Origin: Entrophospora sp. SA101
Lineage: Eukaryota; Glomeromycota; Glomeromycetes; Entrophosporales; Entrophosporaceae
Length of the DNA: 64,000 bases
Assembly (NCBI GenBank): GCA_958430865.1
Contig: CAUDNR010003335.1
Span: 25,840 to 89,839 of the forward strand
Direction: 5' to 3'
In this document: piece by piece, positions 3,878-57,966 of the stretch
How the letters are laid out: the number at the start of each line of letters is the position of its first letter
Position numbering within the stretch: the first letter of the stretch is position 1
The notes under the pieces: generated by a model
Databases searched by the model: none
The model's input: the letters and a program-made list of their open reading frames with translations, nothing else
Told to the model about the DNA's origin: nothing
Translations under genes and position numbers: made by a program

Positions 3878-6155
3878 ATGGATAATTATCATCATCACAA
3901 CTATTTAAAATCATTAAATTTATTAATAATAATTTTTAATTTATTTTTATTAGATTTTTTGGTTTCTGGTCAATTATTAGATATAGATCATCAAAGTTCA
4001 ATAGTGTTAAATGATAAACTCTATTATTTCGGAGGTGTTTCTAAAAGTTCAGGACATACAAACCAAATAATTTACCTAGATTTATCCACATCATTTTCAC
4101 TTAAGCAAACATTACCAATAAAATCAATTGTTCCAAAATCATTAATACCTCCATTTAGTCATGCATCATTAGCATTAGGAGGGGCTAATAATGACACACT
4201 TTATGTTATAGCTGGATATAAAGGTGAAACAGCAGCACCTGGTTCTATAGCCTATGGGTCTATAGTTTATTCAATGAATACAAATTCATTTGATACATGG
4301 ACTCCAGAAACCTTAAATGGACAATTTAAATTAAATAAAGTTGGTGCAACAAGATATACACAAGATAATTATGGAAACACATATATATTCAATCTAAAAG
4401 ATCCAAATATATATAAATTCAATGCAAATAGTAAGATATTTACAACCTTAACACCAAGTATTAGTGGTCCATCAGATGTATATTTATCCAATTGTCATGT
4501 GTTGAATAATGAGAATATAATTTACCTAAATCTTTATGCAACTAAAGTAATATTATAATTTGTTTTTTTATTATTTAATTAAAATAAAAGGAATGAGAAT
4601 ATTATATTTTCTAATAATACATATTATGTTTAGATATACTTGTATAATATTAATCAAAATTCATGGTCTATTATTGTAAGTTATATAATCATCAGCAATA
4701 AGATTTTTCAACTAAAAAGTTATTAATAAATATTTGGTTATATTAGACAACAATTGGTGATATACCTTCTATACGATATGAATATTCTTCAGTATTAAGT
4801 AACTTAATTAATTTTATTATTAATTATTTAATTAATATATTTTTTAACTTATATATTGTAACAAATTACTCCGAAGTCATGTGTAACATCGGGGTGGTAC
4901 ATAAATATTTACATTAGAAACGTGACACATTTATTATTATTATTTGTATTTCGTGTCTTTAATTATATTTATTATTATTATCTATGTCCACAAAATCTTC
5001 CGGATAGATTGATAAGAATCTTATGATTATTATTATTTATATTTTATTTATATTTTATCAATCTTATATTATTATTTATATTTTATCAATCTATGTAATT
5101 TTATATATAAAGGACATCATATTAAGATAATAAAGATTAACTTGTATTTTTACAATCATTAAAATACCGTTCGAGAAACTATTATCGTTAAGAAAAGTAA
5201 ACATTACATATATACACCTATTTATTTGTTTTAGCACCTGATGGAAGGATAGTTGTGTATGGTGGTACTTCAAAATTAGATAAAATAGCAATATTGGATG
5301 TAACAAAATCTCCTTTCCAATGGACAGTCCCAAAAAATATTACTAATTATCCTGTTAATCTAATTGATAAAGATCATTGGGGGCATACTTCAAATTTATA
5401 TAAAGATTACATGATAATCTCGCTTGGTAACTTATAACAATAACAATTTAAAATTCATACATAAATATATTATTTATTTATATTAATTATATTTATATTT
5501 AATAATAATAATAGGTTACTTTTATAGTAATGGTGATTCTAGTGGTTATAAAAATATTTTATTATTAGATATTAGTGACAAATATAATTATAGATGGTTG
5601 GACACATTTGATCCTAAAATCATTACTAGTACTGTTAGTGAACCAACCACCACTGGTACTAATCCTTCAACAGTTATATCCACCACCAGTACTAATCCTT
5701 CAACAGTTATAACCACCACCAATGTTGCTGCTGATCAACAAACTACTGGTATAATTATTGGATCAGTTACATCTGGTGCAATCTTCATCATTATTTTTAT
5801 TTCTATTAATATTTTTTATAGAAGAAAAAATAAATCCAATGAAATGGTTAATAATGTTGTTAGTGATGATGAAAAAGACAGAGAATTAAATCAACAAACT
5901 CATAATGAAAATGAAAATGAAAATAAATTTACTAGTAATATTAAAATCATTTCAAACAATGATAATAGCCACAAATATACCAATAGTGATAGTAATACTG
6001 AAGTTGTAGTAGATACTAGTCATAAAGACATCATTGATGATAATAATATTAAAATTTTGAAAAATAATAGTGATAATGGTAATGTTCAGAATGACCAGTT
6101 AATTACAATTAATGACATGGTCTATTATTGTAAGTTATATAATCATCAGCAATAA
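3878..6155 (+). CDS. Kelch-repeat single-pass membrane protein, five exons
   Basis: Splicing 3878-4546, 4634-4675, 4747-4798, 5235-5426 and 5515-6155 gives an open frame of 531 residues with GT-AG introns throughout. The protein has a hydrophobic signal segment (about residues 11-32), then kelch-type blades containing YYFGGVS, LYVIAGYKG and VVYGGTSKLDKI. After a Thr/Ser/Pro-rich stalk with a repeated TNPSTVI unit comes a transmembrane helix (about 395-418), an RRKNK stop-transfer and an acidic Asn-rich cytoplasmic tail. Such proteins are numerous in Rhizophagus; their ligand is unknown. Intron 3 carries a solo LTR. The last 13 or so codons (from 6116) come from a duplicated copy of this gene's own exon 2/intron sequence, so the native C-terminus has been replaced. 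Confidence 0.85.
4857..5208 (+). mobile_element. Solo LTR in intron 3 of the kelch gene
   Basis: This 352-bp LTR begins TGTAAC and ends TTACA. It is flanked by the 5-bp direct repeat TATAT at 4852-4856 and 5209-5213, the expected target-site duplication for a Ty3-type insertion. It sits entirely inside the 436-bp intron 4799-5234, so splicing should remove it. It differs from the 5' LTR of the downstream full element by a single base indel. Confidence 0.85.
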
Positions 6156-6310
6156 GATTTTTCAACTAAAAAGTTATTAATAAATATTTGGTTATATTAG
6201 ACAACAATTGGTGATATACCTTCTATACGATATGAATATTCTTCAGTATTAAGTAACTTAATTAATTTTATTATTAATTATTTAATTAATATATTTTTTA
6301 ACTTATATAT
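6116..6310 (+). pseudogene. Partial duplicate of the kelch gene (exon 2 end to intron 3 start)
   Basis: This 195-bp segment is identical to 4662-4856: the end of kelch exon 2, intron 2, exon 3 and the start of intron 3. It runs straight into an LTR at the same position as in the parent gene. It cannot encode a working protein. It forms the 5' flank of the chromovirus and supplies the stop codon of the upstream kelch gene. Confidence 0.85.
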
Positions 6311-6661
6311 TGTAACAAATTACTCCGAAGTCATGTGTAACATCGGGGTGGTACATAAATATTTACATTAGAAACGTGACACATTTATTATTATTATTTG
6401 TATTTCGTGTCTTTAATTATATTTATTATTATTATCTATGTCCACAAATCTTCCGGATAGATTGATAAGAATCTTATGATTATTATTATTTATATTTTAT
6501 TTATATTTTATCAATCTTATATTATTATTTATATTTTATCAATCTATGTAATTTTATATATAAAGGACATCATATTAAGATAATAAAGATTAACTTGTAT
6601 TTTTACAATCATTAAAATACCGTTCGAGAAACTATTATCGTTAAGAAAAGTAAACATTACA
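6311..6661 (+). repeat. 5' LTR of the chromovirus
   Basis: 351 bp, starting TGTAA and ending TTACA. It matches the solo LTR at 4857-5208 except for one missing A in an A-run near 6450. It contains nested repeats of TTTATATTTTATCAATCT. Confidence 0.88.
6555..6564 (+). promoter_or_regulatory. TATA box candidate in the 5' LTR
   Basis: TATATATAAAGG lies about 100 bp before the LTR end, the usual place for the element's pol II promoter. The same motif is in the other two LTRs. Inferred from sequence and position only. Confidence 0.5.
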
Positions 6662-6664
6662 ACT

Positions 6665-6676
6665 TGGTAGCAGCGG
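6665..6676 (+). other. Primer-binding site for initiator Met tRNA
   Basis: TGGTAGCAGCGG begins four bases after the LTR end. It is complementary to a tRNA 3' end of the form CCGCTGCTACCA, as in eukaryotic initiator methionine tRNAs, which Ty3-type elements commonly use as the minus-strand primer. Confidence 0.75.
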
Positions 6677-6758
6677 ACGTTTTATATCTACACCCACACA
6701 CACATACTAACACTTCACATATTTACACACATATCGATATTATTCTTATACACACAAA

Positions 6759-7220
6759 ATGACAGACATTAATAATTTGATAGCTGCCTTGGGACAATTG
6801 GTACAATCTCAGCAACAACTGACCCAAACGTTAGGACAACAACAACAAGGGACCCCCCAAAATACAGGAGCTGCTCCTCCAAAAATCTCGGTACAAATTC
6901 CCCCTTTTAAAGGAGAAGTGAAAGAAAATGTCATAGCATGGTTATTACAAGCACAAAATGTTCTAAGAACGCAAGGAATCACTAATGAAGCCACCCAAAT
7001 TAATTATGCTACAACTGGATTCAAAGATGCAGCGCTACACTGGTATTTAAACAAAGTTGTAGGAAATAATAATACACCACCATATACTACTTGGGACACT
7101 TTTGCCAATGCCCTGAGAACTGCTTTTCAGCCACCGAACTATCAACAATATCTCCGACAACAACTTAAAAGACTACGACAAACTAGCACTGTGCAAGAGT
7201 ACACGTCTCAATTTCAAATT
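6759..7220 (+). CDS. Retrotransposon Gag (first frame)
   Basis: The 153-residue product begins [14 protein letters not shown]. It has a Gln-rich stretch and a Ty3-type capsid region with PPFKGE near residue 48, WLLQAQ near 67 and WYLNKV near 96. This frame ends at a stop at 7218-7220. The homologous capsid sequence resumes one base offset ([13 protein letters not shown]), so gag and pol were probably one continuous frame. No canonical slippery heptamer lies at the junction. A one-base loss in an A-run, or a sequencing error, is likelier than programmed frameshifting. Confidence 0.8.
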
Positions 7221-7240
7221 TAATTGGACAGATTGAGGGT

Positions 7241-10200
7241 ATGGGAGAATTGGACCAGGTAACTTATTATATAGACGGTTTAAAGCCATCCACGAGAATG
7301 GAAGTGGCCTACCAAGCTCCAGACACTTTGGAAAAAGCTACTGCACATGCCATTCAATTCGATACCGCAATGTTTGGAAGTGGAAGACCTTTTTCAAACA
7401 ATAGTCAATTTACAAAAGCCTCCTCCTCAAAACGTAACCAAAGAAACAATAATCATAGCAACTATAACAACAACAATAGCAATAATTATTATAATAGTAA
7501 TAATGACAATAACGGATATGTTCCTATGGAACTAGACCAAGCAGAAACCCCCCGCCGAAATTTTTATAACAATAATAATAAGGGCAATGACAAAAAGCCT
7601 AAAGGAAATTGTTATAAATGTGGTATTACAGGACATTACGCTCGTGACTGCAGAAGAGGCAAGGCAAAAATTTCCAACATTGAAAACAATGAACAAAACG
7701 GTAATGGCAATAACAATAATGTTGAATTTTCAAACATAGAAGAAAATAGAGAACAACTTATCCGACTTCAAGGAAAAATAAATGGATACCCTGCTCGAAT
7801 TCTGATCGATAGTGGAGCATCACGAAATTTCTTAGATAAACAATTTGTTGAACGACAAGGCATTCAGACTCAGAGTATTGATCATGTAACAGTAGAACTA
7901 GCAGACGGAAGGAAGATGGGAACTAACAAGATAGTCAATATTAAAAATTTGGAATTAGATACATACCACACTACAGGGATTGTTGCTCAAGTCATTGGGT
8001 TACAACGATACGACGCCATCTTGGGAAAACCCTGGTTGTTTCACGCCAACCCCAACATCAATTGGAGGGATAACACCATGACCTTCCACTATGGATCAAA
8101 AACTATTGTTGTAAAGGCCAATTCCAACCAAACAACAACCAATCCTAGTTGCCATTCTGTGTATATTTCCCGCCAACAGTTAGCAAAGGTACCTACAAGT
8201 GCTGAACTTTTTGCTGTATATATTAATGAGGTTAAGCCAACAGCAACTGATGCAATTCAACCAGATGTCACTACAATGATACAAAAGTTTACCGATGTAT
8301 TTCCTGAGTCCTTGCCTAATCAATTACCCCCAAAGAGAACTGTTGATCATGCCATTAAACTAACACCTGGAGCTGAACCCCCTTCTCGCGCTATTTATCG
8401 AATGTCATATGAAGAAACTAATGAACTGAAGAAACAACTTGCAGACTTATTAAAGAAAGGATATGTTCGACCCAGTACATCACCATTTGGAGCACCTGTG
8501 TTATTCGTTCATAAGAAAGATGGTACATTGCGTCTTTGTGTTGACTATCGGGCATTAAACAAAATTACTATCAAAAATAGATACCCATTGCCTCGCATTG
8601 AAGACTTGATGGATAGACTTGTTGGAGCAAAGTATTTCACTAAAATTGATTTGTATTCTGGATACCATCAAATCCGTATTAAAGAAGAAGACATCCATAA
8701 AACTGCTTTTCGAACTAGATATGGTCATTATGAATTTCTTGTACTTCCTTTTGGTCTGACTAATGCACCAGCAACATTCATGACTTTGATGAATGACATT
8801 TTTCGGGAATTCCTAGATCAATTTGTAATTGTATATTTGGATGACATCTTAATTTATAGTAAAACCAGAGAAGAGCATTTACAACACTTGCAACAAGTTT
8901 TACAAATTCTTAGAAAACATCGTCTATATGCCAAACTTAGTAAATGTGAAATCTTGAAACAAAAAGTTGAGTATTTGGGACACTACATTTCATCGGAAGG
9001 AATATCTGTTGATTCAAGAAAAATTTCAGCTGTCAAGGAATGGCCTAAACCCACTAATGTCTCAGAGTTAAGATCTTTCTTAGGACTTGCTAGCTATTAT
9101 CGAAAGTTTGTCAAGGGATTTTCTACCATTGCTACACCATTGACCTTGTTGTTACATAAGGACCAACCATATAAGTGGGATAATGCACAACAAGTAGCTT
9201 TTAACGAACTTAAAAGATTGTTAACATCTGCACCTGTGTTAGCACTTCCAGACCCAACTAAACCCTTTATTGTAACCACAGATGCATCAGAAATTGCAAT
9301 TGGAGCAGTGCTAAGTCAAGACCAAGGGAAAGGAGAACAACCTGTTGCATATGAATCAAGAAAATTATCACCAGCAGAACAAAACTACCCTGTACACGAG
9401 AAAGAATTATTAGCAATCGTGCATGCCATTAAATTGTGGCGGACTTATATAGAAGGGCAAAAATTTACTGTTGTAACTGACCATGCATCATTAGAATTTA
9501 TTAAGACACAAGCAAATTTATCAAGAAGACAAGCTCGATGGTTAGAAGTGTTACAATCAAGTACTTTTGAGGTGAAATATCGACCCGGGAAAACAAACGT
9601 AGTGGCTGATGCACTTTCTCGTCCACCTCACCTTGCCAATATCACCAGTGTGTCAACTTACTTGACAGAAGAAACGTTAGAAAAAGGATATCACCAGGAC
9701 AAGTATTTTGCACCAATTTTCGAAGCATTGAAAAACTTAGAAAAGAGTGATGAAAAACAAAAGGCACGAGCTGTACATTACGAATTAAGAAATAACAAAT
9801 TATACTTGAAACAAGGCCAACAACTTGCTATTCCTAAAAACAAAGAATTGCGGACTAGTTTGTTGCAAGAATACCATGACATTCCTATTGCTGGACACTT
9901 GGGAATTGATAAAACATACGAAGCCATTCGAAGAGATTATTTTTGGCCAAAAATGGGAAAAGATGTTCAAAAATATGTAACAAGCTGTGACTCATGTCAA
10001 AGGAATAAAAGTAGCAACAAACAACCAGCAGGACTTTTACAACCACTTCCAACACCAACAAAACGTTGGGAACAAGTCACAATGGATTTTATAGTGCAAT
10101 TACCAACAACACGTGGAGGATATGATGCAATTGTAGTAATTGTAGACCGACTATCAAAACGTGCACACTTTTGTCCAACACATACATCAGTGACTGCACC

Positions 10201-11164
10201 GGAAGTTGCAAAAATCTTCTTTTCCACTATTTTTAAAAATCATGGTCTACCTCAAGTTATTATTTCAGATAGAGATGCGAAATTCACTAGTCGTTTTTGG
10301 AAAACATTATTTGAACAAGTAGGAACTAAATTGGCTTTATCAACTGCATTTCACCCACAAACAGACGGACAAACGGAACGGATGAATAGAACACTGGAAG
10401 AAATGTTACGTGCATACTCCTCATACAAACAAGACAATTGGGATGAATATCTACCTGCCGCTGAATTTGCTTACAACAATTCCAAACAACCTTCAACTGG
10501 ACATACACCATTCGAATTGGATTGTGGTCAACACCCAAACACTCCTAGTTCATTAGCAGCAAAGAAAAACACGCAAGTACCAGCAGCAGATGATTTCTTG
10601 AATCATTGGGACACTATGATTCAAGTCGCAAAAGATACTTTGATGATTGCTCAAGAAAGACAAGTAAAATACTCTAATCAAAATCGACGCTACGAAGAAT
10701 ACAAAGTAGGAGATAAGGTCTTGTTGTCTACACGACATATAACTACACCAATTGATAAGAATCGACCAACCAAGAAGCTTGCACCAAAATACATGGGACC
10801 ATACACAATCATTGCTGAAGTTTCTACAACTGCGTACAAATTAAACTTACCAGGAAATTTAAAGATTCATCCTGTTTTCCATGTTTCTTTATTAAAACAC
10901 TACCAAGAAACACCTGATAATTTCAATCGACCCACACCACCACCAGCAATTATCATTCCTGAAATAGAAGAAGAAGAATATGAAGTAGAAAGTATCCTTG
11001 ATAAAAAGTTAGTACGAACAAAACCACATTATTTAGTTAAATGGAAAGGTTATCCATTACATGATGCAACTTGGGAACCTGCTGAACATTTGAAGAATGC
11101 AGAGAGAAAAGTTAAAGAATTTGAATTGACGAGGACGTCAAATCTTAAGGAGGGGAGAATGTAA
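7241..11164 (+). CDS. Retrotransposon polyprotein: nucleocapsid, protease, RT, RNase H, integrase, chromodomain
   Basis: The 1307-residue frame contains the end of Gag with a CCHC knuckle (C-x2-C-x4-H-x4-C, about 124-137). The aspartic protease has LIDSGAS (Asp about 190). Reverse transcriptase has YLDD (about 532-535), and RNase H has TTDAS (Asp about 681). Integrase shows an HHCC zinc site near 885-920 and a catalytic triad at about Asp949, Asp1010 and Glu1046, with D-35-E spacing. A C-terminal chromodomain (about 1243-1300, YLVKWKGYP and TWEP) marks it as a chromovirus, which typically targets heterochromatin. The TAA stop lies inside the 3' LTR. The frame is open from first motif to last, so the copy is young. 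Confidence 0.93.
11147..11159 (+). other. Polypurine tract
   Basis: AAGGAGGGGAGAA lies directly before the TGTAAC start of the 3' LTR, where plus-strand priming is expected. Confidence 0.8.
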
Positions 11165-11509
11165 CAAATTACTCCGAAGTCATGTGTAACATCGGGGTGG
11201 TACATAAATATTTACATTAGAAACGTGACACATTTATTATTATTATTTGTATCAATTATTTCGTGTCTTTAATTATATTTATTATTATTATCTATGTCCA
11301 CAAAATCTTCCGGATAGATTGATAAGAATCTTATGATTATTATTATTTATATTTTATTTATATTTTATCAATCTTATATTATTATTTATATTTTATCAAT
11401 CTATGTAATTTTATATATAAAGGACATCATATTAAGATAATAAAGATTAACTTTGTAATTTTACAATAATTAAATTACTTATTTCGCTTTTAAACATTGA
11501 ATGTTTACA
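11160..11509 (+). repeat. 3' LTR of the chromovirus
   Basis: About 350 bp, from TGTAAC to a probable end at TTTACA (11504-11509). Relative to the 5' LTR it has an extra 7 bp near 11251. Its final 60 bp differ clearly (TTACTTATTTCGC instead of TACCGTTCGAGAA). The following bases, TCTAC, do not match the 5' flank. Confidence 0.75.
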
Positions 11510-12336: not shown

Positions 12337-14723
12337 TTATTTCATCCATTTTCTTAAATTCATCTTTAAATTCATTTCTATAATTCCAATTATAAATAAT
12401 ATTTTTAATTTCTTAGCAGTTGGACATTTATCTGGATTAGCATCCATGAATTTGAATGCTAGTTCAATATAGAGTTTTGGTGTATTGTTTGAAAATCCAG
12501 GTCTTGCACCTCTACATATTTTCATTGCAAGATATTCATCATGTGCCAAATTATTAAATGGTTGTTGGCCAGTTGATACTACAGACATTAGAACCCCAAA
12601 ACTGTATACATCTGATGCTTTTGTATATGGTTTCTCTTTTAAAACTTCTGGTGCAATATATGGTAGTACTCCACATATATCATTTTTGTTTGATGATGAT
12701 GTTTGACTATCTGGGCATGATAAACCTAAATCTGCAATGAATGAATACTGTTTTCCCTTTTGAAAAATATTACCACTATGAAAATCATGATGAATAATTT
12801 CTTTTTCATGAATATCTTTTAAACCACTAATAATTTGTTTAAGAATATTAATTTTATCATTCCATTTTAAAATTTTAAAATCTTTAGTTAAATAATTTTG
12901 GAGACTTCCATCTTTCATATAATCCATTACAAAAATATATTCTTTTGTAATTGGATCTTGTGTTAATCCATAAATATGAATTATATCACTTTTATCATGA
13001 AGCTTTATATAATTTTTGAACTAAATAATAAATAAAATATTTAATTATAACAATAATAATTGATAATATCTAAAAAATCTGAAAATAAATAGAAGAATAA
13101 AATAATTTACCTCATTAAGAAATTCATCAGAAATATTCTGTGAATTGTGTAGTTTTTTTAATGCCACAGGCATATCCTTGCTAGTTCTTTTATTTCTACT
13201 ATTAACTTTCTGGCCATTTAACCAAGTAGCTTTGAATATAGTTGCAAACCCACCTTCACCAATCTTTTCAATATTTGTTAAATCATTATAAGGAATTCAT
13301 TGAAGATAATCATAATTTCTATATCTTGTTGCTTTAAGTTGTGTACTTTTAATCAACTCATTTAATGTTTCATTGTCACTAGTCCATCCTTCAGTTAATA
13401 GTTTTTGATCACATGATTGACACCATGAATAACTAGTATTATATCTATTGCAGGTTGGGCATTCCCCATACTTTTCACCTCTTTTCTTTGAATATTCATC
13501 ATTTTGAAAGCCTCCATCTTCCATGTAATGCATTACAGAGATATATTCTTTTGTAATTGGATCTTGTGTTAATCCATAAATATAAACTTTATCATAAAAC
13601 TTTGTATAATTTTTGAACTAAAATAACAAAAATATTTAATTACAACAATGATAATCAATGATATTTTTGTATTAATATAATAATTTACCTCATTAAGAAA
13701 TTCATCAGAAATATTCTGTGAATTATGTAGTTTTTTTAATGTCACAGGCATATCCTTGCTAATTCTTTCATTATCATGATTTATACTTTTATAACCATTT
13801 AACCAAGTAGCTTTGGATATAGTTACAAACCCACCTTCACCTATCTTTTCAATATTTGTTAAATCATTATAAGGAATCCATTGAAGATGATTACTATAAT
13901 GATACTTAGTTGCTTTAAGTTGTGTACTTTTAATCAACTCATCTAACGTTTCATTGCCACTAGTCCACCCTTCAGTTAACAACTTTGGATCACATGATTT
14001 ACACCATAAATAATCAGTATTATATCTATTGCATGTTGGACATTTCCCATAATATTCTCTTCTTTCCTTTGAATATTGATCATCATAATCTTGAAGACTT
14101 CCATCTTCCATGTATTCCATTATAAAGATATACTCTTTTGTAGCTGGATCTTGTGTTAACCCATAAATTTTATTTATAAATGATTTACCATGAAATGTAA
14201 CATAATTTCTAAACTATATAAAAAAAATATATTAAATTCAGAATAAGATTAAAAAATCTGAAAATAAATAATTTACCTCATTAAGAAACTCATCAGAAAT
14301 ATTCTGTGAATTATGTAGTTTTTTTAGTGCTACAGTCCTATCTTTTCTAGTTCTTTTATTTCCAATAGCCAGTTTATCACCATTTAACCAAATAGCTTTG
14401 GATATAGTTGCAAAACCACCTTCACCTATCTTTTGGATATTTGTTAAATCATTATAAGGAATCCATTGAAGATAATTATTATAATGATACTTAGTTGCTT
14501 TAAGTTGTGTACTTTTAATCAACTCATCTAATGTTTCATTGCCACTAGTCCACCCTTCAGTTAACAACTTTGGATCACATGATTGACACCATGCCAAATG
14601 GGTATTATATCTATTGCAGGTTTGACATTCCCCATACTCTTTATATCTAATATATGGATCTTCATTTTTGTCAGTAGGAGTATCATAATGATGTTTGTTT
14701 TCATTCAAAGTGTTTTTCATCAT
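12337..14723 (-). CDS. TKL-like protein kinase gene with triplicated zinc-ribbon plus N-lobe module
   Basis: The minus-strand exons 14723-14277, 14213-13689, 13617-13111 and 13020-12337 all join in phase 0 across GT-AG introns. Exons 1, 2 and 3 each encode a CxxC-x9-WC-x2-C ribbon, a WTSGNETLDELIKSTQLKAT-like linker and a kinase N-lobe with IGEGGF and a VALKKL lysine. Exons 2 and 3 each begin with the kinase hinge (EYMEDGSLQ) fused directly to the next ribbon. Only exon 4 supplies a C-lobe: HHDFHSGNIF catalytic loop, DLG instead of DFG, and APEVL. Exon 3 has an in-frame TGA at 13299-13297, where the other copies have TGG. A one-base loss near 12403 shifts the frame after the kinase domain. 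Skipping exons 2 and 3 would give a normal-length kinase of about 376 residues. Confidence 0.8.
12960..14640 (-). repeat. Roughly 580-bp tandem repeat inside the kinase gene
   Basis: Three units repeat with periods of 588 and 578 bp, measured between the equivalent splice donors at 14277, 13689 and 13111. Each unit spans ribbon, N-lobe, intron and hinge. The units differ by scattered substitutions, so the array is not a simple assembly stutter. Confidence 0.8.
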
Positions 14724-14936: not shown

Positions 14937-14946
14937 NNNNNNNNNN
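14937..14946. other. Assembly gap (10 N), contig 1/2 junction
   Basis: Ten N characters. The sequence to the right enters the duplicated block 14957-16316 almost at once. Confidence 0.99.
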
Positions 14947-14956
14947 GAGTGAAAGT

Positions 14957-16316
14957 GGTAATTAATTACGTTAATTACGAATTACGTATTTACGGTAATT
15001 AGCTAATTACCATATCATGTATAGTAATGATAGTGGGGTGCATACTACTACTTTATGCAAAACTAATGTCATATTCTTTTCTATTAAGTGCTTGTTGCCA
15101 AAGGACTTTTGTTAGTAGAATACTGACATTTAATTTGAATATTGTAATAATAAAATTCAAAATCCACCTCATTTCTGCTAGTTTCTATTTGTAAATTTGT
15201 AATACAGATTCTTATTCAAATTATTCATAATGCACACAACTCAATCTTAATTCAAATTATTTGTTTTATTCAAATAGAAACCCTAGTTCTGGTCAAGTGC
15301 AAGGTTTTCTTTATAGCTGCACATGTATTATTATTGCAGGTGAATTCTGGTCAAATGTCTCAGTTTTATGTCCAGCTTCATATATTCTAAAAAAAAAAAA
15401 ATAGAAATATACTACTTGAGGCATTACTATGTAAATTAAAGGGGTTCCTAACTAATAGTTAAAGGTTGGCTGAACCATTAATCATCAGAAAGGATTATGA
15501 ATCAACCCCACCAGCTTTATTAATTAATCAAATGTATATTATTAAAAAATGAAGGAAATTTTTAAGTGTTTATACTTCTTGAAGCATTACAAACAATATG
15601 ACTTTTTACATGATTTTGTCCAATAAAATATAATAAATAGAATAATTAAATGAATGACTAATATTAATTACTAATGTTAATTACTAATGTTAAATGCCAA
15701 AATGCATCATTGATGTTATCATGATATAAAATGAAGCAATTGGGATCCAAGCTGGACCTCAATTTACTATTAATATCTTGTATGGCATTTATTTGGGTCA
15801 TGTATATTATCATTTTGCATATTCTCTCAAGCAAGCTGTGTTAAAGTCAATTCTCTTTCAAATTCTCTCCAACATTAGGAGGTTCCTACATGGAATTTAC
15901 AGTCAAATCTTGTCACAACAGGCCTCACCACAGCAGATTTCTTGTTATTATTAATAATATTAATTATAATTTAGATTTGGAGAGATCTGCATTTTATTTC
16001 AGGTCACGTGAATCAGTTATAGGAAGTGTTAATTTATATGAGCATAACGGAATTTCTTTGTGATTGGTCAATAATGATCAACAAATTTAATTGAGTTTGT
16101 TGACCAAAATAAAATTTGATTTTATCAATCAGAGGCAATTAAATATTAGCAATGTGTACATCTACATATTATGTTAATATACATATAAATAAACAATACA
16201 TGGTTTCCAAATAATTAAATCAATTGCATATCTAATAAAAAAACAAGTATTATTAATAAATAAATATTTAAAATGATAAAAATGACATGTTTGCATCTAC
16301 CTCTAAATGGTTTCAT
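14957..16316. repeat. Segmental duplicate A (partner 49387-50745)
   Basis: The offset is a constant 34429 bp from about 14981 to 16316, with only a few base differences (for example near 15315 and 15474). Homology stops inside the left terminal repeat of the MITE-like element. No gene is visible here. Confidence 0.9.
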
Positions 16317-20990: not shown

Positions 20991-22986
20991 TTATAAATAT
21001 TTTTTGTTGAAAAAAGATTGAATTACACACATTATTTGTGTTACAATTAATTATTTGTTTCATTTATTTTGAAAGAGGGGGGTTCTTTATCAATTAAAGG
21101 AGTAGCAGCAGTGATTAACTAGTGAGTAAATCAGATTCAGAAGAGGAAGAAAGTGATGAATGAATCTGCTGCATTAAATTAGGACGAACTTTGTAAAAAA
21201 AAAACAGCATGTAAGAAAGGTTGTATATAACTATATCTTTAATAAAAATCAATTAGCATGTAATAGTAGAGATTTCTTGTAATGTTTTCTTGCTTATATC
21301 AGATAAGTAATTATAATAATGATGACTGTGGTGTTGATTTGATTATAATATTGATGATTTTATTTTTTAAAATGTTATGTTGTGTTTAGGAAATTTATGT
21401 GATATAATGGTACAGTCAAGGTTACCTTTTTTCATTGAGAAAAATCACAAACTTCCAATTGGAATGACATTAACAAGTGGAGTAATTAATTATATGAACC
21501 ATCAATAAGACATTAGTATTAATGCACGATGTTTAACATTGTCAGTGCTAGAAAAATATGGCGATGATGATTTGTAAAAATCCTTGAGGTGATGGTAAGC
21601 TTATTAGAGAGTATTATTAATTTGGATGATACAGGATTTAGCATCGAGAGCAAATCAGGTAAATAAAATGGTTTCTCGGAACAGACGATGATCAAAAGAT
21701 TTATATTCTTGTGATAAATTGGTTGAGATTACTAAAAGCTAAATTATATATAGAATCAAAGATCCAACACTATATAGACTATGTAAATTATATAAAAAAA
21801 TTATTATCGCTATGTTAAATTTCAATATATATATGTATAACTATTATTTTCCATCATCTATCATTACTATTACCATCTTTCCACCAATTCTCTTATTTTA
21901 CGTTCAATAATCAAGTTTCCTAATGGTTACATTTCATTGGACTACCATTGGATCATCATTATGTATTTGTAAAAATTTCATAATCCCAAAAAATCATACT
22001 GTTACTTCACTAATAGTACACGATGGATATTGATATTGAATAATCGAAAGAATGTGTAATAAAAAATGAGGAAAAGAAATTAAACGGTCACACATGTATG
22101 GTGCATTGGAGGTCATAAAATTTTCAATTTAGAAGTACTGCTTATCCCAAAACCTACAATTGATAAACCCGACTGGGTATTTGGGAATTAAATTGATTCT
22201 CGCAGATAAATTTAGCTGGAAGGTGAATCAGTTTGCCTATATATAAAGAACAATCTTAATAATTATATAATAGGCCCACATTCTCATTAATATCTACATT
22301 TCTTCGGTTAAACTAAAACCATCTATATTTCGTCGTTACCTATTATGTAATTTCATGAAATTGCCATGTTGATTATGGTAATTACTGTACACAAATAATA
22401 ATAAAATAAATTTGATCGATCGGCTCAGGATTATCAAAATTTCAAAAGAGCATTTTAAGCAATTCGAAATATTAATAAATCACAAGAATATTACGATCTT
22501 AAATACATGTTGGTGTAGAGCCAAACATTCTAGAGATTCACACGCATCCATTCGTTCTTTAACAAAAAGACAATCGGTATTATGTTGTAAGGCGTCACAT
22601 ATTAAACTAGTGAGGCAGTTTTAAAACAATCTTCAGGTAAGTTTATTAAAATGGAGCTTTTCAATAAAACGCGTGAAACTTGAAAAGATACCACTATTTT
22701 TATTAATAACAATATAATAATCCCTCCCTGTGATTGTGTGATCTTGTGATTAATCCCGCTTCATCGATTAATAAGATTGCATTATTCACTTTAACGAAAA
22801 GTTTTTAAGTTCATGTGTCAAATTTGGATCTTTTTTTCAAAAGAATTTTGATTGAAATTTTAGTTTAATAATTAACAGATAAATCTTAGAAATGTGCAAA
22901 TTTTCTCGAGATTATATTCTACAAAATGCAGATCTGTTGTGAAACTACAAAAATTTGTTGATCAATTTTATCAATTTTATCAAAAA
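20991..22986. other. Intergenic upstream of ZNHIT2
   Basis: At 21131-21170 a short plus frame reads KSDSEEEESDE and stops, perhaps the acidic end of a lost gene. At 21430-21570 another stretch reads KNHKLPIGMTLTSGVINYMN with stops nearby, a likely decayed coding fragment. A 70-codon ORF at 22412-22624 has no recognisable family and may be chance. From 21254 on, everything is duplicated at +29514. Confidence 0.4.
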
Positions 22987-24611
22987 ATGTCAAAATTAAT
23001 TAGTAGTATAATTACTGAAAATTCCGATGATAGTATTATAAAAGAACAACAAAATCAAGTTTGTGGCATGTAAATTATCTTAATTATGTATATTATTGTA
23101 ATTACTATAGTAATTTGAATTTTTTTTTGTTAATGAAGTCATTTTCTAAATTCTAATTTTTCTAAAAAAAAAAATTATAGATGTAAAAAGCAAAATTCAA
23201 AATATAACTGTCCGAGATGTAATCTTAAATATTGTTCATTAGATTGTTATAAGCATCAAGTACCCATCATTTTTTACATGAGAGAAATTGATTACTATAA
23301 AATTTTGGTTTTAAAAATTATTAATTTTTTGTTTTTTTTTTTTAAAAAAAAATACAATTGCTACCATCATATAGAGTCATTTAACATGTACAGAATCGTT
23401 TTATAAAGATAATATAATGGAAGAGATTAAGAGTCAAGGACTTGTTGATGAAGATCAAAAAAATAAAATGTTAAATTTCTTAAGAAAATTTGAACAAGAA
23501 AATGATGAGACAATTAAGGAATCTATATATCAAGATCAAGATTTAGAAGGTTCATCCATTTAATTAATTGATTAATTAATTATAATGATTAGCATTTATA
23601 TATATTTGTTATAATTTAGATGAAGAAGATATTATTGAAAGATTTAAAGATATAAATATTGGTATGAAAATTCAATTAAATAAATTGATGCTTTATTATT
23701 AATATTAAAAAATATATCAAGAGACCATAATAATCAATTAATAAACACATAATATATGAATAAATAAATGGATGATTAGATTCAGCAGATTTTCAAACAA
23801 TATGGAATAAGTTGACAGAGAAAGAACGTCAAGAATTTTTAGAAGGAAAAATAGAAAATTTTATTGTAGAATTAGAATTATGGAAACCTTGGTGGCAATC
23901 ATTAAGTCAACAACAATCATCTAAAATAATTGAACTTACTAATGATGATGATGATAAATTAAATAATAATAATAATAATAACAATAATGTGAAAAATTCA
24001 ACTAGACCAAAAATAATTTCCAATATTGTTAAATTAGATTTTGCAAAAAAACCTCCAAATCCTGGTATTATTTATAATCTTGTGAATATTTTGTATCCTT
24101 TTTATGTTTATTATTATTATTATTATTGCTATTATTATTATTATTGAAAATATTCTCAACTTGTATCATAATCAAATAATTAATTAGGTATGCATATGCT
24201 TATACTTGTAGATTTTTTAATGGGGAAATATTAGAAAATTTAGAAGAATCATGTTTAGTAATATGGGATTTATCACCTATTCTATCATCAAATCAAAATC
24301 TAGTATATGAAAATGCTTCACATGCAATTTCTATGAGTTTGCAATTAACTTTAAAGGTAATAAATGCGTTTCTGCATATGTGTACATTATAATTTCATTA
24401 TTTACTTGTTATTTTTGTTATTTATCATTTATCTTTTTTCAAAAATTAGAATACTAAATACAAACAACCTCCAGATTTTTCATATTTGATAATAAATGAT
24501 ATTATTTCATTATTATCTACACATGAAAATACACTTGCAGCATTATCAGATCTGTTAAATCTTTTTCAGAAATTTAATTCATCTGCATCTGTATCCACAA
24601 AAATAACCACG

Positions 24612-24642
<31 letters not shown>

Positions 24643-24956
24643 TAAATAAAAAATCAAAGTCTAAACAAAAATCTTTTTTAAATGGGAAAAAAATTGAATT
24701 TTATTTGTCATACACAGGTTATTTGCTATCAATAGATAAAGAAAAGGAAAAGTTTGACAAGGTTGATGAAATGACATTGAGAATGAAATTGTTGATTAGT
24801 GAACTTGAAATTTTTAAACAAACCAAAATTTTGGAACATGATAATCATCAAATATTGCAAAAAGATGTCGAAAAAGTTTTAGAATATAAAAAAGTAAGAT
24901 TTGAAAATAATGATGATGATGATGAGAAAGATCAAAGGATTATTGAAGAGATTTAA
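22987..24956 (+). CDS. Zinc finger HIT domain protein 2 (ZNHIT2-like), seven exons
   Basis: Exons 22987-23069, 23181-23259, 23375-23549, 23620-23661, 23780-24092, 24188-24356 and 24450-24956 give 455 residues. The N-terminus has a HIT-type zinc finger: CGICKK, NCPRCN, YCSLDCYKHQ, then HLTC after intron 2. ELELWKPWWQSL (about 150-160) and a helical C-terminal half follow, as in ZNHIT2, an adaptor of the R2TP/HSP90 machinery that helps assemble complexes such as U5 snRNP. Poly-Asn and poly-Ser runs interrupt weakly conserved regions. It is convergent with the LIM gene, the two stops lying about 150 bp apart. An apparently identical copy lies at 52501-54470. Confidence 0.85.
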
Positions 24957-25104
24957 ATAAAATAGCAATGGCATTCAAACTGCCAAAAAAAAATTTTATT
25001 ATTATTATTGTTACAACTCAAAGTTCTCTAATATATATTCTCCAAAAAATAAAAATGATTGTTATTATTAAAATTACATAAACAGTATATTATTATTGTT
25101 ATTA

Positions 25105-26050
25105 TCAGCTTAACATTTCTCTATAATGTACATCACAATAAGGTTGTCCTTGGTGAATATAATAATATGAACTATTGAATGGTTGTTTACAAGTCTAAGA
25201 AAATAGAAATAAAAATTAATTAATATATATCTAATACAAGGATTTACACAATTAAATAACCTACCTTGCAACCGAAACAATCACGGTGCCACTTTCCATC
25301 CAATGCATTTGTAAATTCTCCTTTGATTGGGTTTTGACAACCCTTACATTTTGGCGCTAAATAATAATATTAGTTTATTGATTTAATATAATACATACAT
25401 TTCTAATAGTAGAATTAATGAATGAATGATCTATTTACCAAATTTTTTCATCCAATCTTTTTCACAGTATGGAAAACCATCATGCACCATGAAACCACCA
25501 CTTTCAAATGGACCGCCACATTCACGACAAAAGAAATGTCCTACATGCCAAGATTTTCCAAGTGCTGTAATAGATTGCTAATAATTTTTTTTTTAAAAAA
25601 TTTTATATTATTATAATGATGAATCACAAATATTTTTTTTCCTCTCCAAAATAAAATAAAAATAATTTACCCCTTCAATAGGTGTATTACAATAACCACA
25701 TCTTGGACTAAACAATTCATGAAAATCTAAATGACAATATGGCAATCCATCTTGTTCAAAAAAAGCAACATGTTCTAAAGAAGTATTACATTTTGTACAT
25801 GTGAAATGATCTGGATGCCATTTTTTCCCCATTGCCGACAAAACTTTCCCTGTGATTGATTTACCACAACCCCCACAATTTAATGATGCTATATTATGTA
25901 TAGACGATGATAGTCTACTATTGTTATTATTGTCACCAAGAGGTTGATTATTTGATGGATGTATTTTTGAAGTTGGTGTTGAATTACGTTTATGTTCTTG
26001 ATTATTTTCTGATATATTACTATTGATGCTATTTCTATTACTATTATTAC

Positions 26051-26092
<42 letters not shown>

Positions 26093-27254
26093 CACCACCG
26101 ATACTATTGTTATTAATAGCAATACCATTGTTGTTATTAATTGTATTGTTTGAATTTGAAATATTTTTCTCGTCAGATTTTTCTGAATGAGGGAATTTCT
26201 TTTGAGCGTCATCAAATTGTGCATTCCAATATGATTCATTATTCCCACCACTCCTATCATTATTACCATTATTATTATTTTTTAGTTCATTATTTAATTG
26301 CTTGTCAAATTGATGTTGTTTTTGTAATATATTTACTGTAGAGTTGTATATCTTTTTGTTTTTATTGATTTCACTTTGAATTTGCTCTGGAGTTTGTTTA
26401 ATTAATGACGGGGTCCTTGATGCTGGTTTGGAAGAAGCAGTATGTGACTTGAATGCAGCAGATAAAACATAACTACCTTTTGTGCCATCATCTATTTTTG
26501 TATTAGAAGCATTAGCAGAGATGGCTCCTTCATCAATATTGTTGTTATTATTATAACTACTGTTAACATCTGTAGTTTGATTATTATTTTGTTTAAAAGA
26601 AAGCTTTGTTTCCGTTGGATAAGTTAGATCATTAATTAGTTCATTAATATCATTATTTTTATCAATCTTGTTTGTAATAGTTTCACGAAAACTTGATTCT
26701 GATAAAGCAGAATCTGTGGTGTTTAGTTGTGTAGAGGAAGGAGGCGAATAAGCAGCAGAGCTGGAAACTGATTCAGGAGAAGATGGTGTTTTGATGTTTT
26801 CTTCAATTTTTTGACTAAGTGAACGAGTAAGAATTGAAGTGGTCTTGTTTGGAGAAGGATATACCCTTGGACCATACAAACCTCCTACTTTCCTCTCAGT
26901 TGAATAAGTGGGAATAGAATCAACAATAATCGAAGAGGAGGAGGAGGAGGAGGAGGAGGAGAAGGTAGAAGGAGGAGAAGAAGGACTTAAAATTACATTA
27001 TTAATATTGTTATTGTTATTGGATGGAACAGTTGAAGTTATTGGACTTTTTGGTGGCGTTATTAAACTTGAACGTTTAGGAGGTGCTTTATTCTTTAAAT
27101 TTTTTAAATAATTTGCTAAAAAAAAATATAAATTATTAATGATATTATCATCAGTTAGAAACAATTTATTGGGGATAAATAAAGTATTAGTCTCGGACAG
27201 AATTCAAAAAACTTTACCAAGTTCATCTTTTGTAAGATTTTTTTTATCATTCAT
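25105..27254 (-). CDS. Paxillin-like protein with three LIM domains, five exons
   Basis: Exons 27254-27218, 27115-25671, 25577-25439, 25356-25265 and 25194-25105 give 600 residues. The N-terminus MNDKKNLTKDELANYLKNLK resembles the start of fungal paxillin-like LIM proteins. A long low-complexity Ser/Pro/Asn region follows, including a run of about 13 Asn encoded by an AAT microsatellite (26045-26095). Three LIM domains end the protein: LIM1 from CGGCGKSITGK, LIM2 split across the exon 2/3 junction (CGYCNTPIEG then WHVGHFFC), and LIM3 from CKGCQNPIKGEF to YCDVHYREMLS. Such proteins link the actin cytoskeleton to Rho/Cdc42 signalling at growth and division sites. A second copy is at 54619-56768. 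Confidence 0.85.
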
Positions 27255-28169
27255 CTTTATTATAAATTGTTGTTAAAAAAAAATTTGAGTTTTAAATCGA
27301 AAAAAAAAATAAATCATCCCAATATGGTAATGGGGTTGAATAACTCCTTTATTTATAAAGAAGGTTGTAAGACAAACATGACACAATTGTACTTCTCTTG
27401 TCACATCAGGTATCGAGCATAATTAGAAATTTCATATCACGAAACGTTAAATATAAAAAAAGAACTTTTCTTTCGTTATTACTAATTATGGTACAATAAT
27501 AATTTTTCTTTTCAACTTTTCAATAAAAAAAGGTGTATATTGCATTTTTTTTACTCCTATAACTTTTAGACTCCCTGCTGAGCCGATCATCATTTTTGAC
27601 AACAAAATAATATAAATAAATAGTTTGTTTTATATGTAATAGTAGTATTATGTGGTTTGTTGGAATGCTAAAATCTCAATTAAGGTTTTGGTATGTGGTA
27701 CAAAATGAAATGTTTCGGAAAAAAAACACCAGATCGACAAAAATGTAACTCGATCATCAATCATTATTATTTTCTTATTTTGTATTTTGTCAAAAAATAA
27801 TTATTTTTTTGATTACTTGTTATTCAATTAAATTACTTATTAGATTCGTATTTGTTTTTAACAAATGTTTATATTGAATATAAATAAGCTATAATTTCAA
27901 CGAGCTTGGAAAAAATATTGTGTATGTACATTGTATCGCTGTATGTAATATGCTGCATACATCCCATTTTCGACTTTCTCAAAAAGGAACCCAACACCGA
28001 AACTCCTATATATTACTATAGTAAATAAAAAAATATGAATGATTTACATAAAATCGGATCTTTTTTTAAATTTAATATTAAATACACGTGACGTTTGAAA
28101 TTTTTTCTTATGAAAAATGGAAATTTACTCTGAAACCAAGCTATCGATAATTACATTCGCAAAGAAATC

Positions 28170-28570
28170 GTGAACCGAAATTTTATTCTTGCATTCATTT
28201 TATTGGCCAAACTTTCCATGGTTGATACTATTCCACATCAACTTCATAAAAAAGATGCTACTGTCTTCTATCTCTATTGAAGAAGATAACTACCCTTACT
28301 CACTGTAACATTTTCAGATCGTATCGTTCCCAGAGGAACCGCTGATTTCATTGTTACCGGAAAACTAGCGAAAGATATCGCCTCAGGTCCCGAAGTTATT
28401 ATTGTATTTGGCGAGCCCATATTTTCCCATTTACTGCGGATGTTTACTATATTCAGTGGAAGTTCGGATACCAGCAGATTTACCTAAATTCTAGTTACTG
28501 CTTTAGATTCATCTTCTGAGGCTGTTGTAGGCTGTGCATCGGGTGATGCTGCATTTATTGAGAATACAAC
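28170..28570 (+). pseudogene. Decayed ML-domain lipid-binding protein gene
   Basis: The remains are spread over three frames. A signal-peptide frame reads NRNFILAFILLAKLSMVDT then IPHQLHKK, beginning GTG where ATG is expected. Then come RIVPRGTADFIVTGKLAKD, VEVRIPADLP and AVVGCASGDAAF. The series matches secreted ML (MD-2-related lipid recognition) proteins of Rhizophagus, relatives of the phosphatidylglycerol/phosphatidylinositol transfer protein. Start loss, stops and at least two frameshifts make it non-functional. The duplicate block ends inside it at 28452. Confidence 0.65.
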
Positions 28571-48660: not shown

Positions 48661-49460
48661 AATTATTTTGTCAAAAACGTAATACGTAATTACGAAATTA
48701 ATTACGGGTGACGAAATTAATTACGGGTGACGAAATCAATTACGAATGACGAAATTAAATGACACCTATTATTTATCTCGTTATACTAGTATAATGACAT
48801 AATTTGTCAACTTTTTTTAGAATTATAGAATTTATTATGTTATAACGACATGTCAGTATAATGGGAGAACCAATCAAAATAATTCTCATTTCTGAAAAAA
48901 CATAATAATAAGGAAATAAAACTTACACCGTGATCAAGATTGACTGGCACCATGGAAAATTCTGATAACACTTCTGTATAATACTGGTCAATTTTGACCC
49001 GGCGTAAGCTTTAAATTTCCTGATAAAACATGAATGAAATAAAAATAAAATATATAATAAAATAAAATTACAAAATCATGTGATAATGATTCTCATATTA
49101 ATATGACTTCTATATGAACTCCCATTATAATGACATTCTTGTCATACTGACATTTTTTGTTTGTATGAAGAGAGTGTTGTTATAACAGGAGTGACTTGTA
49201 TTATGATATTTCCAATAATTAATTCATTGTTATTCATAATTAATTTCGTCACCTGTAATTGATTTTGTCACCCATAATTGATTTTGTCACCCAAAATTGA
49301 TTTTGTCATCCGTAATTAATTTCGTCACCCATAATTGATTTTGTCACCCATAATTGATTTTGTCATCTGTAATTAATTTCGTCACCCGTAATTAATTATG
49401 TAATTACGAATTACGTATTTACGGTAATTAGCTAATTACCATATCATGTATAGTAATGAT
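48641..49460. mobile_element. Foldback-type element with arms of tandem 18-19 bp repeats
   Basis: The left arm (48690-48765) has about four tandem copies of GACGAAATTAATTACGGGT. The right arm (49235-49395) has about nine inverted copies (AATTGATTTTGTCACCCAT and variants). The outer ends also pair: ACTATACATGGGATGGTAAT with ATTACCATATCATGTATAGT. The 470-bp centre has further inverted sequence around TGTTATAACGACATGTCAGT and GACATTCTTGTCATACTGAC. No gene is present. The right end abuts duplicate A. Confidence 0.7.
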
Positions 49461-50745
49461 AGTGGGGTGCATACTACTACTTTATGCAAAACTAATGTCA
49501 TATTCTTTTCTATTAAGTGCTTGTTGCCAAAGGACTTTTGTTAGTAGAATACTGACATTTAATTTGAATATTGTAATAATAAAATTCAAAATCCACCTCA
49601 TTTCTGCTAGTTTCTATTTGTAAATTTGTAATACAGATTCTTATTCAAATTATTCATAATGCACACAACTCAATCTTAATTCAAATTATTTGTTTTATTC
49701 AAATAGAAACCCTAGTTCTGGTCAAGTGCAAGGTTTTCTTTACAGCTGCACTTGTACTATTATTGCAGGTGAATTCTGGTCAAATGTCTCAGTTTTATGT
49801 CCAGCTTCATATATTCTAAAAAAAAAAAAATAGAAATATACTACTTGAGGCATTACTATGTAAATTAAAGGGGTTCCTAACTAATAGTTAAAGGTTGGCT
49901 AAACCATTAATTATCAGAAAGGATTATGAATCAACCCCACCAGCTTTATTAATTAATCAAATGTATATTATTAAAAAATGAAGGAAATTTTTAAGTGTTT
50001 ATACTTCTTGAAGCATTACAAACAATATGACTTTTTACATGATTTTGTCCAATAAAATATAATAAATAGAATAATTAAATGAATGACTAATATTAATTAC
50101 TAATGTTAATTACTAATGTTAAATGCCAAAATGCATCATTGATGTTATCATGATATAAAATGAAGCAATTGGGATCCAAGCTGGACCTCAATTTACTATT
50201 AATATCTTGTATGGCATTTATTTGGGTCATGTATATTATCATTTTGCATATTCTCTCAAGCAAGCTGTGTTAAAGTCAATTCTCTTTCAAATTCTCTCCA
50301 ACATTAGGAGGTTCCTACATGGAATTTACAGTCAAATCTTGTCACAACAGGCCTCACCACAGCAGATTTCTTGTTATTATTAATAATATTAATTATAATT
50401 TAGATTTGGAGAGATCTGCATTTTATTTCAGGTCACGTGAATCAGTTATAGGAAGTGTTAATTTATATGAGCATAACGGAATTTCTTTGTGATTGGTCAA
50501 TAATGATCAACAAATTTAATTGAGTTTGTTGACCAAAATAAAATTTGATTTTATCAATCAGAGGCAATTAAATATTAGCAATGTGTACATCTACATATTA
50601 TGTTAATATACATATAAATAAACAATACATGGTTTCCAAATAATTAAATCAATTGCATATCTAATAAAAAAACAAGTATTATTAATAAATAAATATTTAA
50701 AATGATAAAAATGACATGTTTGCATCTACCTCTAAATGGTTTCAT
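49387..50745. repeat. Segmental duplicate A, second copy (partner 14957-16316)
   Basis: Collinear with 14981-16316 at an offset of 34429, with a few substitutions. It ends at TTTCAT, then 12 unique bases and the gap. Confidence 0.9.
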
Positions 50746-50757
50746 ATTATATAACTT

Positions 50758-50767
50758 NNNNNNNNNN
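50758..50767. other. Assembly gap (10 N), contig 3/4 junction
   Basis: Ten N characters between duplicates A and B. In the first copy these blocks are separated by 4.9 kb (16317-21253). Confidence 0.99.
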
Positions 50768-54125: not shown

Positions 54126-54156
<31 letters not shown>

Positions 54157-54470
54157 TAAATAAAAAATCAAAGTCTAAACAAAAATCTTTTTTAAATGGG
54201 AAAAAAATTGAATTTTATTTGTCATACACAGGTTATTTGCTATCAATAGATAAAGAAAAGGAAAAGTTTGACAAGGTTGATGAAATGACATTGAGAATGA
54301 AATTGTTGATTAGTGAACTTGAAATTTTTAAACAAACCAAAATTTTGGAACATGATAATCATCAAATATTGCAAAAAGATGTCGAAAAAGTTTTAGAATA
54401 TAAAAAAGTAAGATTTGAAAATAATGATGATGATGATGAGAAAGATCAAAGGATTATTGAAGAGATTTAA
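52501..54470 (+). CDS. ZNHIT2-like protein, second copy
   Basis: Same seven-exon structure as 22987-24956, shifted by 29514: exons begin at 52501, 52695, 52889, 53134, 53294, 53702 and 53964. It encodes the same 455-residue HIT zinc-finger protein in the parts compared. Upstream DNA is duplicated for 1.7 kb, so the promoter is probably included. If the copies are haplotypes, this is the allele and not a paralogue. Confidence 0.85.
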
Positions 54471-54618
54471 ATAAAATAGCAATGGCATTCAAACTGCCAA
54501 AAAAAAATTTTATTATTATTATTGTTACAACTCAAAGTTCTCTAATATATATTCTCCAAAAAATAAAAATGATTGTTATTATTAAAATTACATAAACAGT
54601 ATATTATTATTGTTATTA

Positions 54619-55564: not shown

Positions 55565-55606
<42 letters not shown>

Positions 55607-57683: not shown

Positions 57684-57966
57684 GTGAACCGAAATTTTAT
57701 TCTTGCATTCATTTTATTGGCCAAACTTTCCATGGTTGATACTATTCCACATCAACTTCATAAAAAAGATGCTACTGTCTTCTATCTCTATTGAAGAAGA
57801 TAACTACCCTTACTCACTGTAACATTTTCAGATCGTATCGTTCCCAGAGGAACCGCTGATTTCATTGTTACCGGAAAACTAGCGAAAGATATCGCCTCAG
57901 GTCCCGAAGTTATTATTGTATTTGGCGAGCCCATATTTTCCCATTTACTGCGGATGTTTACTATAT
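57684..57966 (+). pseudogene. ML-domain pseudogene, second copy, cut by the duplication end
   Basis: Identical remains to those at 28170-28452 (signal region and RIVPRGTADFIVTGKLAKD), but the sequence departs at 57967. The VEVRIPADLP and GCASGDAAF parts are absent. Confidence 0.6.

Follow-up and report, generated by a model that had tools for sequence, protein, structure and literature searches.

What does a gene encode in which three kinase N-terminal lobes (N-lobes) stand in a row ahead of a single C-terminal lobe (C-lobe)? The question is raised by a four-exon kinase gene in a 64,000-nucleotide stretch of the Entrophospora sp. SA101 genome (Glomeromycota; contig CAUDNR010003335.1, positions 25,840 to 89,839), referred to below as the window. 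We conclude, with a probability of about 0.7, that this gene belongs, as a decayed copy, to a large poly-N-lobe kinase family of the Glomeromycotina, whose members would be translated serially and whose upstream lobes would be non-catalytic binding or regulatory modules. The repeats have the appearance of conserved modules without catalytic function, and not of a splicing anomaly peculiar to one gene.

Structure of the window gene

The gene lies on the minus strand (14723-12337), and its exons measure 447, 525, 507 and 684 nt, all divisible by three. Its parts are given below in window coordinates (H, beta4-beta5-hinge; R, ribbon, a small motif resembling a zinc ribbon; N, N-lobe).

14277..14723, minus strand: exon 1, 149 codons; ATG start, ribbon 14577-14627, N-lobe beta1-alphaC 14277-14462, ends in FLNE before the GT donor
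14214..14276, minus strand: intron 1, 63 nt, GT-AG, phase 0
13689..14213, minus strand: exon 2, fused H-R-N, type A, 175 codons; beta4-beta5-hinge 14100-14213, ribbon 13992-14042, N-lobe 13689-13877
13618..13688, minus strand: intron 2, 71 nt, GT-AG, phase 0
13111..13617, minus strand: exon 3, fused H-R-N, type B, 169 codons; beta4-beta5-hinge 13513-13617, ribbon 13411-13461, N-lobe 13111-13296
13111..13296, minus strand: N-lobe of exon 3, the terminal N-lobe of the serial protein
13297..13299, minus strand: in-frame TGA, replacing a Trp that is invariant among aligned open modules (column 106)
13021..13110, minus strand: intron 3, 90 nt, GT-AG, phase 0
12337..13020, minus strand: exon 4, 227 codons and the stop; beta4-beta5-hinge 12907-13020, IIHHDFHSGN 12769-12798, ADLGL 12721-12735

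Translation confirms the architecture proposed in an earlier, sequence-only reading of the locus. Each of exons 1-3 carries a CxxC-x8-WCxxC ribbon and an N-lobe of the form IPYNDL...LKK...FLNE. Exons 2 and 3 run from the beta4-beta5-hinge of the preceding lobe to the next ribbon and the next beta1-alphaC, with the hinge-to-ribbon junctions inside these exons, and the sole C-lobe (HHD, DLG) is exon 4. The tandem modules are 64-88% identical without gaps. The coordinates of that reading (including TGA 13299-13297) are exact, and all three introns are in phase 0, as it had stated. The donor context of exon 1, AATGAG/GTAAATTA, is common to most members of the family.

The last N-lobe and the C-lobe are of the TKL type. 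Exon 3 encodes the glycine loop (KIGEGGFAT), the beta-3 Lys (VALKK) and the alphaC Glu (FLNE) ahead of the C-lobe. Exon 4 matches Pfam PF00069 with 112.7 bits (cut-off 31.7; 2.6e-32) and PF07714 with 108.8 bits (cut-off 23.1). The fused exon scores under the Pfam cut-offs, and thus such modules can escape domain counts.

Could separate kinase genes have been collapsed or chimerically joined during assembly? The window does contain 10-N gaps and a 7.2-kb near-identical duplication. However, the gene is free of gaps (a 10-N gap at 14937-14946 lies upstream of it), and dozens of contigs show the arrangement, as do predicted proteins from several genera. We rejected this explanation, which is hardly credible.

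A damaged copy

With more than one ribbon and N-lobe unit and a terminal C-lobe, the gene belongs to the poly-N-lobe family (two or more units, one C-lobe); its reading frame is not intact. The TGA, the only in-frame stop ahead of the end of the gene, immediately precedes the N-lobe of exon 3. The last exon is short, at 228 codons including the stop versus 271-299 in the paralogues counted as intact. Because of these two lesions, we consider the window copy to be probably a pseudogene. Reading of the TGA as Trp is unlikely, as it is the sole in-frame TGA in a gene with spliceosomal-type introns. The invariance of the Trp column in open modules and the presence of TAG at the same codon in another copy further disfavour it.

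The same TGA occurs in a paralogue on contig C1683, the exon 3 of which is 99.4% identical. Exons 1 and 2 of the two genes are only 77.5% and 88% identical, and the starts of the last exons are nearly alike by eye. This pattern suggests a recent partial gene exchange between them.

A family of arrays in the same genome

We searched the 101.3 Mb assembly (2123 contigs) using the protein sequence of fused exon 2 and identified at least 151 matches, two of which are exons 2 and 3 of the window gene; the number is a lower bound, as 150 of 1872 candidates were scored. Thus, the fused exon is not a chance product. The matches listed are 66-100% identical, and all but one start in the hinge part. Six of them lie in a row on contig C746. 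The motif DEFLNE/GTRAAT occurs 369 times in the genome and the C-lobe motif 203 times (reversed-pattern controls, 0).

The 70 loci returned were merged into 52 stretches, of which 10 (other kinases) were dropped before counting and 42 were annotated. These were picked for resemblance to the window gene, and some are near-identical, so that the share of arrays among all kinases is not estimable from the counts. Fused exons and a C-lobe exon are present in 39 of the 42, in the order RN/(HRN)n/HC (C, C-lobe), with n up to 5 in the fetched stretches. Every annotated internal exon is open and the last exon is full in 23 of the 39. The last exon is intact and an internal exon broken in six, the reverse holds for two, both are broken in four, and four are cut by an end. 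Complete genes were identified on contigs C1380 (a first exon, five internal exons and a last exon of 297 codons), C687 and C1374 (four internal exons each) and C1846 (three).

Internal exons are open in 76 of 90 cases and broken in 14. The frame is conserved: among distinct internal exons, 76/82 have a length divisible by three and 69/82 are open, with none open in either other frame. The lengths of 107 distinct introns modulo three are distributed 30/30/47. Breakage affects 13/82 internal exons (~0.0009 per codon) versus 6/32 catalytic exons (~0.0006 per codon), roughly similar rates, and the two kinds co-occur (Fisher p 0.043; the stretches are not all independent).

Two types of internal exon can be told apart by the H segment: A (FRNYVTF..KSFINKIYG) and B (LKNYTKFHDKVYIYG). 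Neighbouring pairs are AB in 25 cases, BA in 11, AA in one and BB in two (own regular expressions; nine exons unclassified), and alternating arrays are found on C910, C1380 and C1338, for example. Because the types alternate, arrays probably grow by two-exon units. The alternation is also compatible with lobes acting in pairs.

Active unequal exchange, as indicated by the alternating modules and near-identical copies, raises the possibility that the internal modules are functionless by-products of recombination in a hugely duplicated kinase family with many pseudogenes. The two lesions of the window copy and the 14 broken internal exons are in line with this. However, intact genes with up to six ribbon and N-lobe modules exist (C1380), and both purifying selection outside the variable columns and position-specific constraint in relatives, including a clade in which Acaulospora and Gigaspora terminal modules group together (below), argue for retained modules. 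We regard recombination debris as quite an improbable account of the family.

The donors and acceptors are nearly identical across the family and the boundaries are all in phase 0, so that all joins are in frame. In the window gene, a join from any array exon to the last exon keeps the frame. The geometry noted in the sequence-only reading, in which an exon 1-to-4 join is in frame and bypasses the TGA, is correct. That reading proposed a splice switch. In a splice cassette of this kind, skipping would bring a varying (or the first) N-lobe next to the one C-lobe and so yield kinases of normal length whose N-lobes are interchangeable; it would also be able to give shorter in-frame arrays. The six stretches that combine an intact catalytic exon with a broken internal exon are consistent with a cassette, as are the first lobes in this genome, which keep the GG of the glycine loop in 25/31 cases and the beta-3 Lys in 31/31. 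The in-frame geometry stands, but the architecture is family-wide and most internal exons are open, which is not what a switch in a single gene would look like. A 574-aa frame on C1662 was considered as intron-free modules that would prove serial splicing, and was rejected: 63 nt lie between the modules, and (from coordinates only) introns are probably present but stop-free.

Arrays in other Glomeromycotina

The sequence-only reading suggested a search of related genomes for the same tandem arrangement, and it is present in predicted proteins of several Glomeromycotina genera. Queries were joined exons of an intact paralogue; they matched 166 and 939 proteins, of which the top 120 in each case were listed, giving 203 distinct proteins (19 LIM proteins excluded). 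The named matches among those listed are from Rhizophagus, Glomus, Gigaspora, Acaulospora, Racocetra, Diversispora and Funneliformis, all Glomeromycotina. Using profiles built from the Entrophospora modules, we detected an N-lobe in 201/203, of which 154 have 2-11 N-lobes and a single C-terminal catalytic lobe. Of the other 47, 15 are plain kinases, another 15 contain several full kinases or have a mixed order, and 17 have N-lobes and no detected C-lobe. By simple patterns, HxD was recognised in 102 and D.G in 115 of the 154 array proteins.

The listed matches include 21 OCT59-named proteins, of which 18 are N-lobe arrays (14 with one terminal C-lobe and four in which the C-lobe was undetected). 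These proteins very probably come from the Nanopore RNA-refined R. irregularis annotation of Manley et al. (2023), which suggests that the serial joins are transcribed.

Constraint on terminal and upstream lobes

Among the 154 array proteins, terminal lobes retain the second Gly of the glycine loop in 145/147 cases, versus 7/138 for first and 41/426 for other lobes (terminal versus rest, p 1e-105). In 107 of the 144 proteins with the terminal Gly, no upstream lobe has it. The beta-3 Lys is found in 150/151 terminal, 111/141 first and 361/424 other lobes (p 2e-9). In the Entrophospora genome, GG is present in 27/27 terminal lobes, versus 25/31 first and 24/42 internal lobes (terminal versus rest, p 0.00017). 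The lobe under constraint of a catalytic kind is thus the last and not the first. As the last N-lobe of the relatives keeps the glycine loop and their first and internal lobes have mostly lost it, the target of selection seems to be the serial array, with pseudo-N-lobes ahead of one competent kinase.

The tree of 194 modules points in the same direction. It includes 162 modules (at least 80% profile coverage) from 38 proteins hand-picked from the 120 then available and 32 drawn randomly from the 100 Entrophospora modules. All 15 of the terminal modules from Acaulospora and Gigaspora group in one clade (0.90), and the closest neighbour of each is a terminal module from the opposite genus. Non-terminal modules have a non-terminal nearest neighbour from another species in 51/53 cases for Acaulospora and 17/17 for Gigaspora. 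Based on the shared clade and these neighbours, the division of labour between lobes in these fungi predates the split of the two genera. The terminal or non-terminal label changes 18 times on the tree, versus at least 31 times in 200 within-species shuffles. In R. clarus and R. irregularis, the nearest neighbour is a terminal module for 10/13 terminal modules.

This evidence bears on the splice cassette. If exon 1 were routinely joined to the C-lobe exon, the product in the relatives would mostly pair a degenerate N-lobe with the C-lobe, as their first lobes have mostly lost the glycine loop, and the relatives, including 18 of the 21 listed OCT59-named proteins, are annotated as serial arrays. 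The claim that the 1-to-4 join yields a standard kinase thus fits the Entrophospora genome, where first lobes are mostly intact, but not the relatives. Exon 1-to-4 skipping is possible, and is probably not the selected form; we consider a family-wide splice cassette unlikely.

Several observations weigh against serial arrays with non-catalytic upstream lobes. The beta-3 Lys is present in all 100 distinct open modules of the Entrophospora genome (first lobes, 31/31) and is mostly retained in upstream lobes of the relatives as well, and the terminal/internal split is weak in this genome. The Entrophospora terminal modules form no clade, and 10/10 of those sampled have a non-terminal module from another species as their closest neighbour; the modules in this genome either arose recently by copying or are homogenised. 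In R. clarus and R. irregularis, the closest neighbour from another species is a terminal module for 42/60 non-terminal modules. Relaxation of the glycine loop could mean plain dispensability of the internal lobes. Structure models are of moderate confidence (predicted local distance difference test, pLDDT, 77 and 73; predicted template modelling score, pTM, 0.54 and 0.48). The relatives are known from gene predictions, the arrays described here from DNA and predicted proteins, and a binding function of the arrays is our deduction.

Purifying and diversifying selection

Across the ribbon and N-lobe of the Entrophospora modules, the ratio of nonsynonymous to synonymous substitution rates (dN/dS) comes to 0.73 in first modules, 0.50 in internal ones and 0.69 in terminal ones; with the most variable columns set aside, it is 0.32-0.54. 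Variation in these modules is concentrated before the ribbon, at the three residues before WC of the ribbon, before beta1 and in the beta2-beta3 loop. In the last exon, it is concentrated in several loops.

At columns picked by residue variability in other module classes, dN/dS is 2.3-3.3. Picking columns by nucleotide diversity in other genes, a choice that ignores nonsynonymous or synonymous status, gives 1.49-2.48 (5-95%, median 1.66) versus 0.39 for the rest. Random halves of the last exon give 2.1-3.1 versus 0.62. In these tests the pairs are non-independent, and gene conversion may spread variants across halves. Columns picked by third positions give 0.52, a bias expected from the choice. 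Values are not clearly above 1 (0.59-1.05) at columns picked by variability in A. morrowiae or G. rosea, and column variability correlates between species (Spearman 0.58). The values above 1 at loop columns are suggestive, and diversifying selection is likely in this lineage and unproven in general.

Comparison with known systems

In tandem duplicated cassette exons of the Dscam kind, rows of similar exons have equal phase at both ends. The arrays here share both features (with phase 0 at each exon end, a common phase as in mutually exclusive cassettes), but their constraint depends on position and the relatives are annotated as serial. In JAK proteins, the pseudokinase module JH2 regulates the adjoining active kinase JH1. 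JAK-type JH2-JH1 structures are the top Foldseek rows, and here, too, a non-catalytic kinase module lies directly ahead of an active kinase. However, JH2 is complete, with both lobes and without repeated N-lobes or ribbons, whereas the upstream units of the arrays stop at the hinge. When solved structures were searched by sequence, the fused exon had one match (E 0.031). Pseudokinase expansions in the TKL group are reportedly the subject of work by Kwon in 2019.

The TKL group is described as rich in pseudokinases in plants and fungi (PMC10211241). Plant tandem kinase-pseudokinases such as wheat WTK1/Yr15 (PMC6170490) likewise combine an active kinase with a degenerate kinase part in tandem. 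That study lists the glycine loop among the least conserved places of plant pseudokinases, and proposes a regulatory role for the pseudokinase module. It treats proteins with two kinase domains and excludes incomplete ones, whereas the family described here has one to ten N-lobe-only units, each with a ribbon and none with a C-lobe.

Kinase expansion has been reported in R. irregularis or related fungi (PMC6123716, PMC8647823, PMC10234402, PMC4219462), and MLKL-type kinase-domain proteins are described as expanded only in Glomeromycotina (PMC8778642). The expanded TKL kinases of Rhizophagus and other Glomeromycotina (Maeda 2018, PMC6123716; Dallaire 2021, PMC8647823; Manley 2023, PMC10234402) resemble the arrays in the PF07714/PF00069 C-lobe, in taxon and in very high copy number. 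The excerpts of these accounts available to us deal with the expansion and describe neither serial N-lobes ahead of a lone C-lobe nor the repeated ribbon. Searches of the open-access literature yielded no description of N-lobe arrays.

Proposed origin and function

The family plan is a number of units, each a CxxC ribbon with a complete kinase N-lobe, followed by one ribbon and a complete TKL-type kinase. Tandem duplication of the unit probably produced it; the new junction, within an exon, fuses the hinge and the ribbon that follows, and the old phase-0 intron between alphaC and beta4 is retained in each module. Intact members would give one serial protein in which, judging from the position-specific constraint, the last N-lobe alone pairs with the C-lobe.

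The upstream N-lobes would then be retained, non-catalytic modules that are predicted to fold. They lack a C-lobe, and in relatives mostly the glycine loop, and thus should be incapable of catalysis alone; their conservation points to a structural or binding role. Most likely they offer multivalent binding, docking or regulatory surfaces to the terminal kinase. Array length may shift by unequal exchange while certain loops diversify. Decoy N-lobes, suggested in the sequence-only reading, are a possible function of the full-length product.

More tentatively, rows of ribbon-bearing pseudo-N-lobes with diversifying loops could form a variable recognition repertoire of multivalent sensors that gate the terminal kinase, with specificities arising by module exchange between and within genes. 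We hold this to be possible, if some way short of probable. In role it may be likened, with the same reserve, to the repeat-based nonself receptors of fungi or the tandem kinases of plants, although its building block would be new.

Other features of the window and genome

We identified a retrotransposon-like region beside the kinase gene (4857-11478), with open reading frames (ORFs) of 154 aa (6759-7223) and 1307 aa (7241-11164) that resemble Ty3/Gypsy gag-pol by eye. The region includes repeats of ~310 bp (4857-5167, 6311-6620 and 11160-11478). The window also contains a LIM gene, whose best matches are from Entrophospora sp. SA101 and E. candida (61, 59 and 54% identity), in line with an Entrophospora-like arbuscular mycorrhizal fungus as the source. 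Positions 21254-28455 and 50768-57969 are 99.99% identical over 7.2 kb, and 14958-16316 and 49388-50745 are 99.5% identical over 1.36 kb. The ends of both duplications adjoin or lie near 10-N gaps (50758-50767 and 14937-14946), and the duplications are either true segmental duplications or assembly/haplotype redundancy.

Elsewhere, five kinase genes (L002, L003, L004, L008 and L009, on C1178, C1773, C1459, C458 and C1735) have long frames that depend on decoding TGA as Trp, with 728, 668, 1163, 445 and 883 aa under table 4 versus 290, 281, 223, 191 and 237 under table 1. A ribbon of the same kind is visible in four of them, and leucine-rich-repeat-like stretches in L002, L004 and L009 (by eye). 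They look like host-type kinases in Mollicutes-related endobacteria of the fungus. At G000 C1450:17765-18367, a kinase profile match lies inside a stop-free frame reported as 9037 aa.

Implications

Repeated reports of kinase expansion in arbuscular mycorrhizal fungi, as excerpted, give it no explained function. If a large part of these kinases are arrays of non-catalytic N-lobes with one kinase, kinase counts in these genomes need revision. The kinase N-lobe would then become a repeat module in its own right, and the family would be testable as a sensor system.
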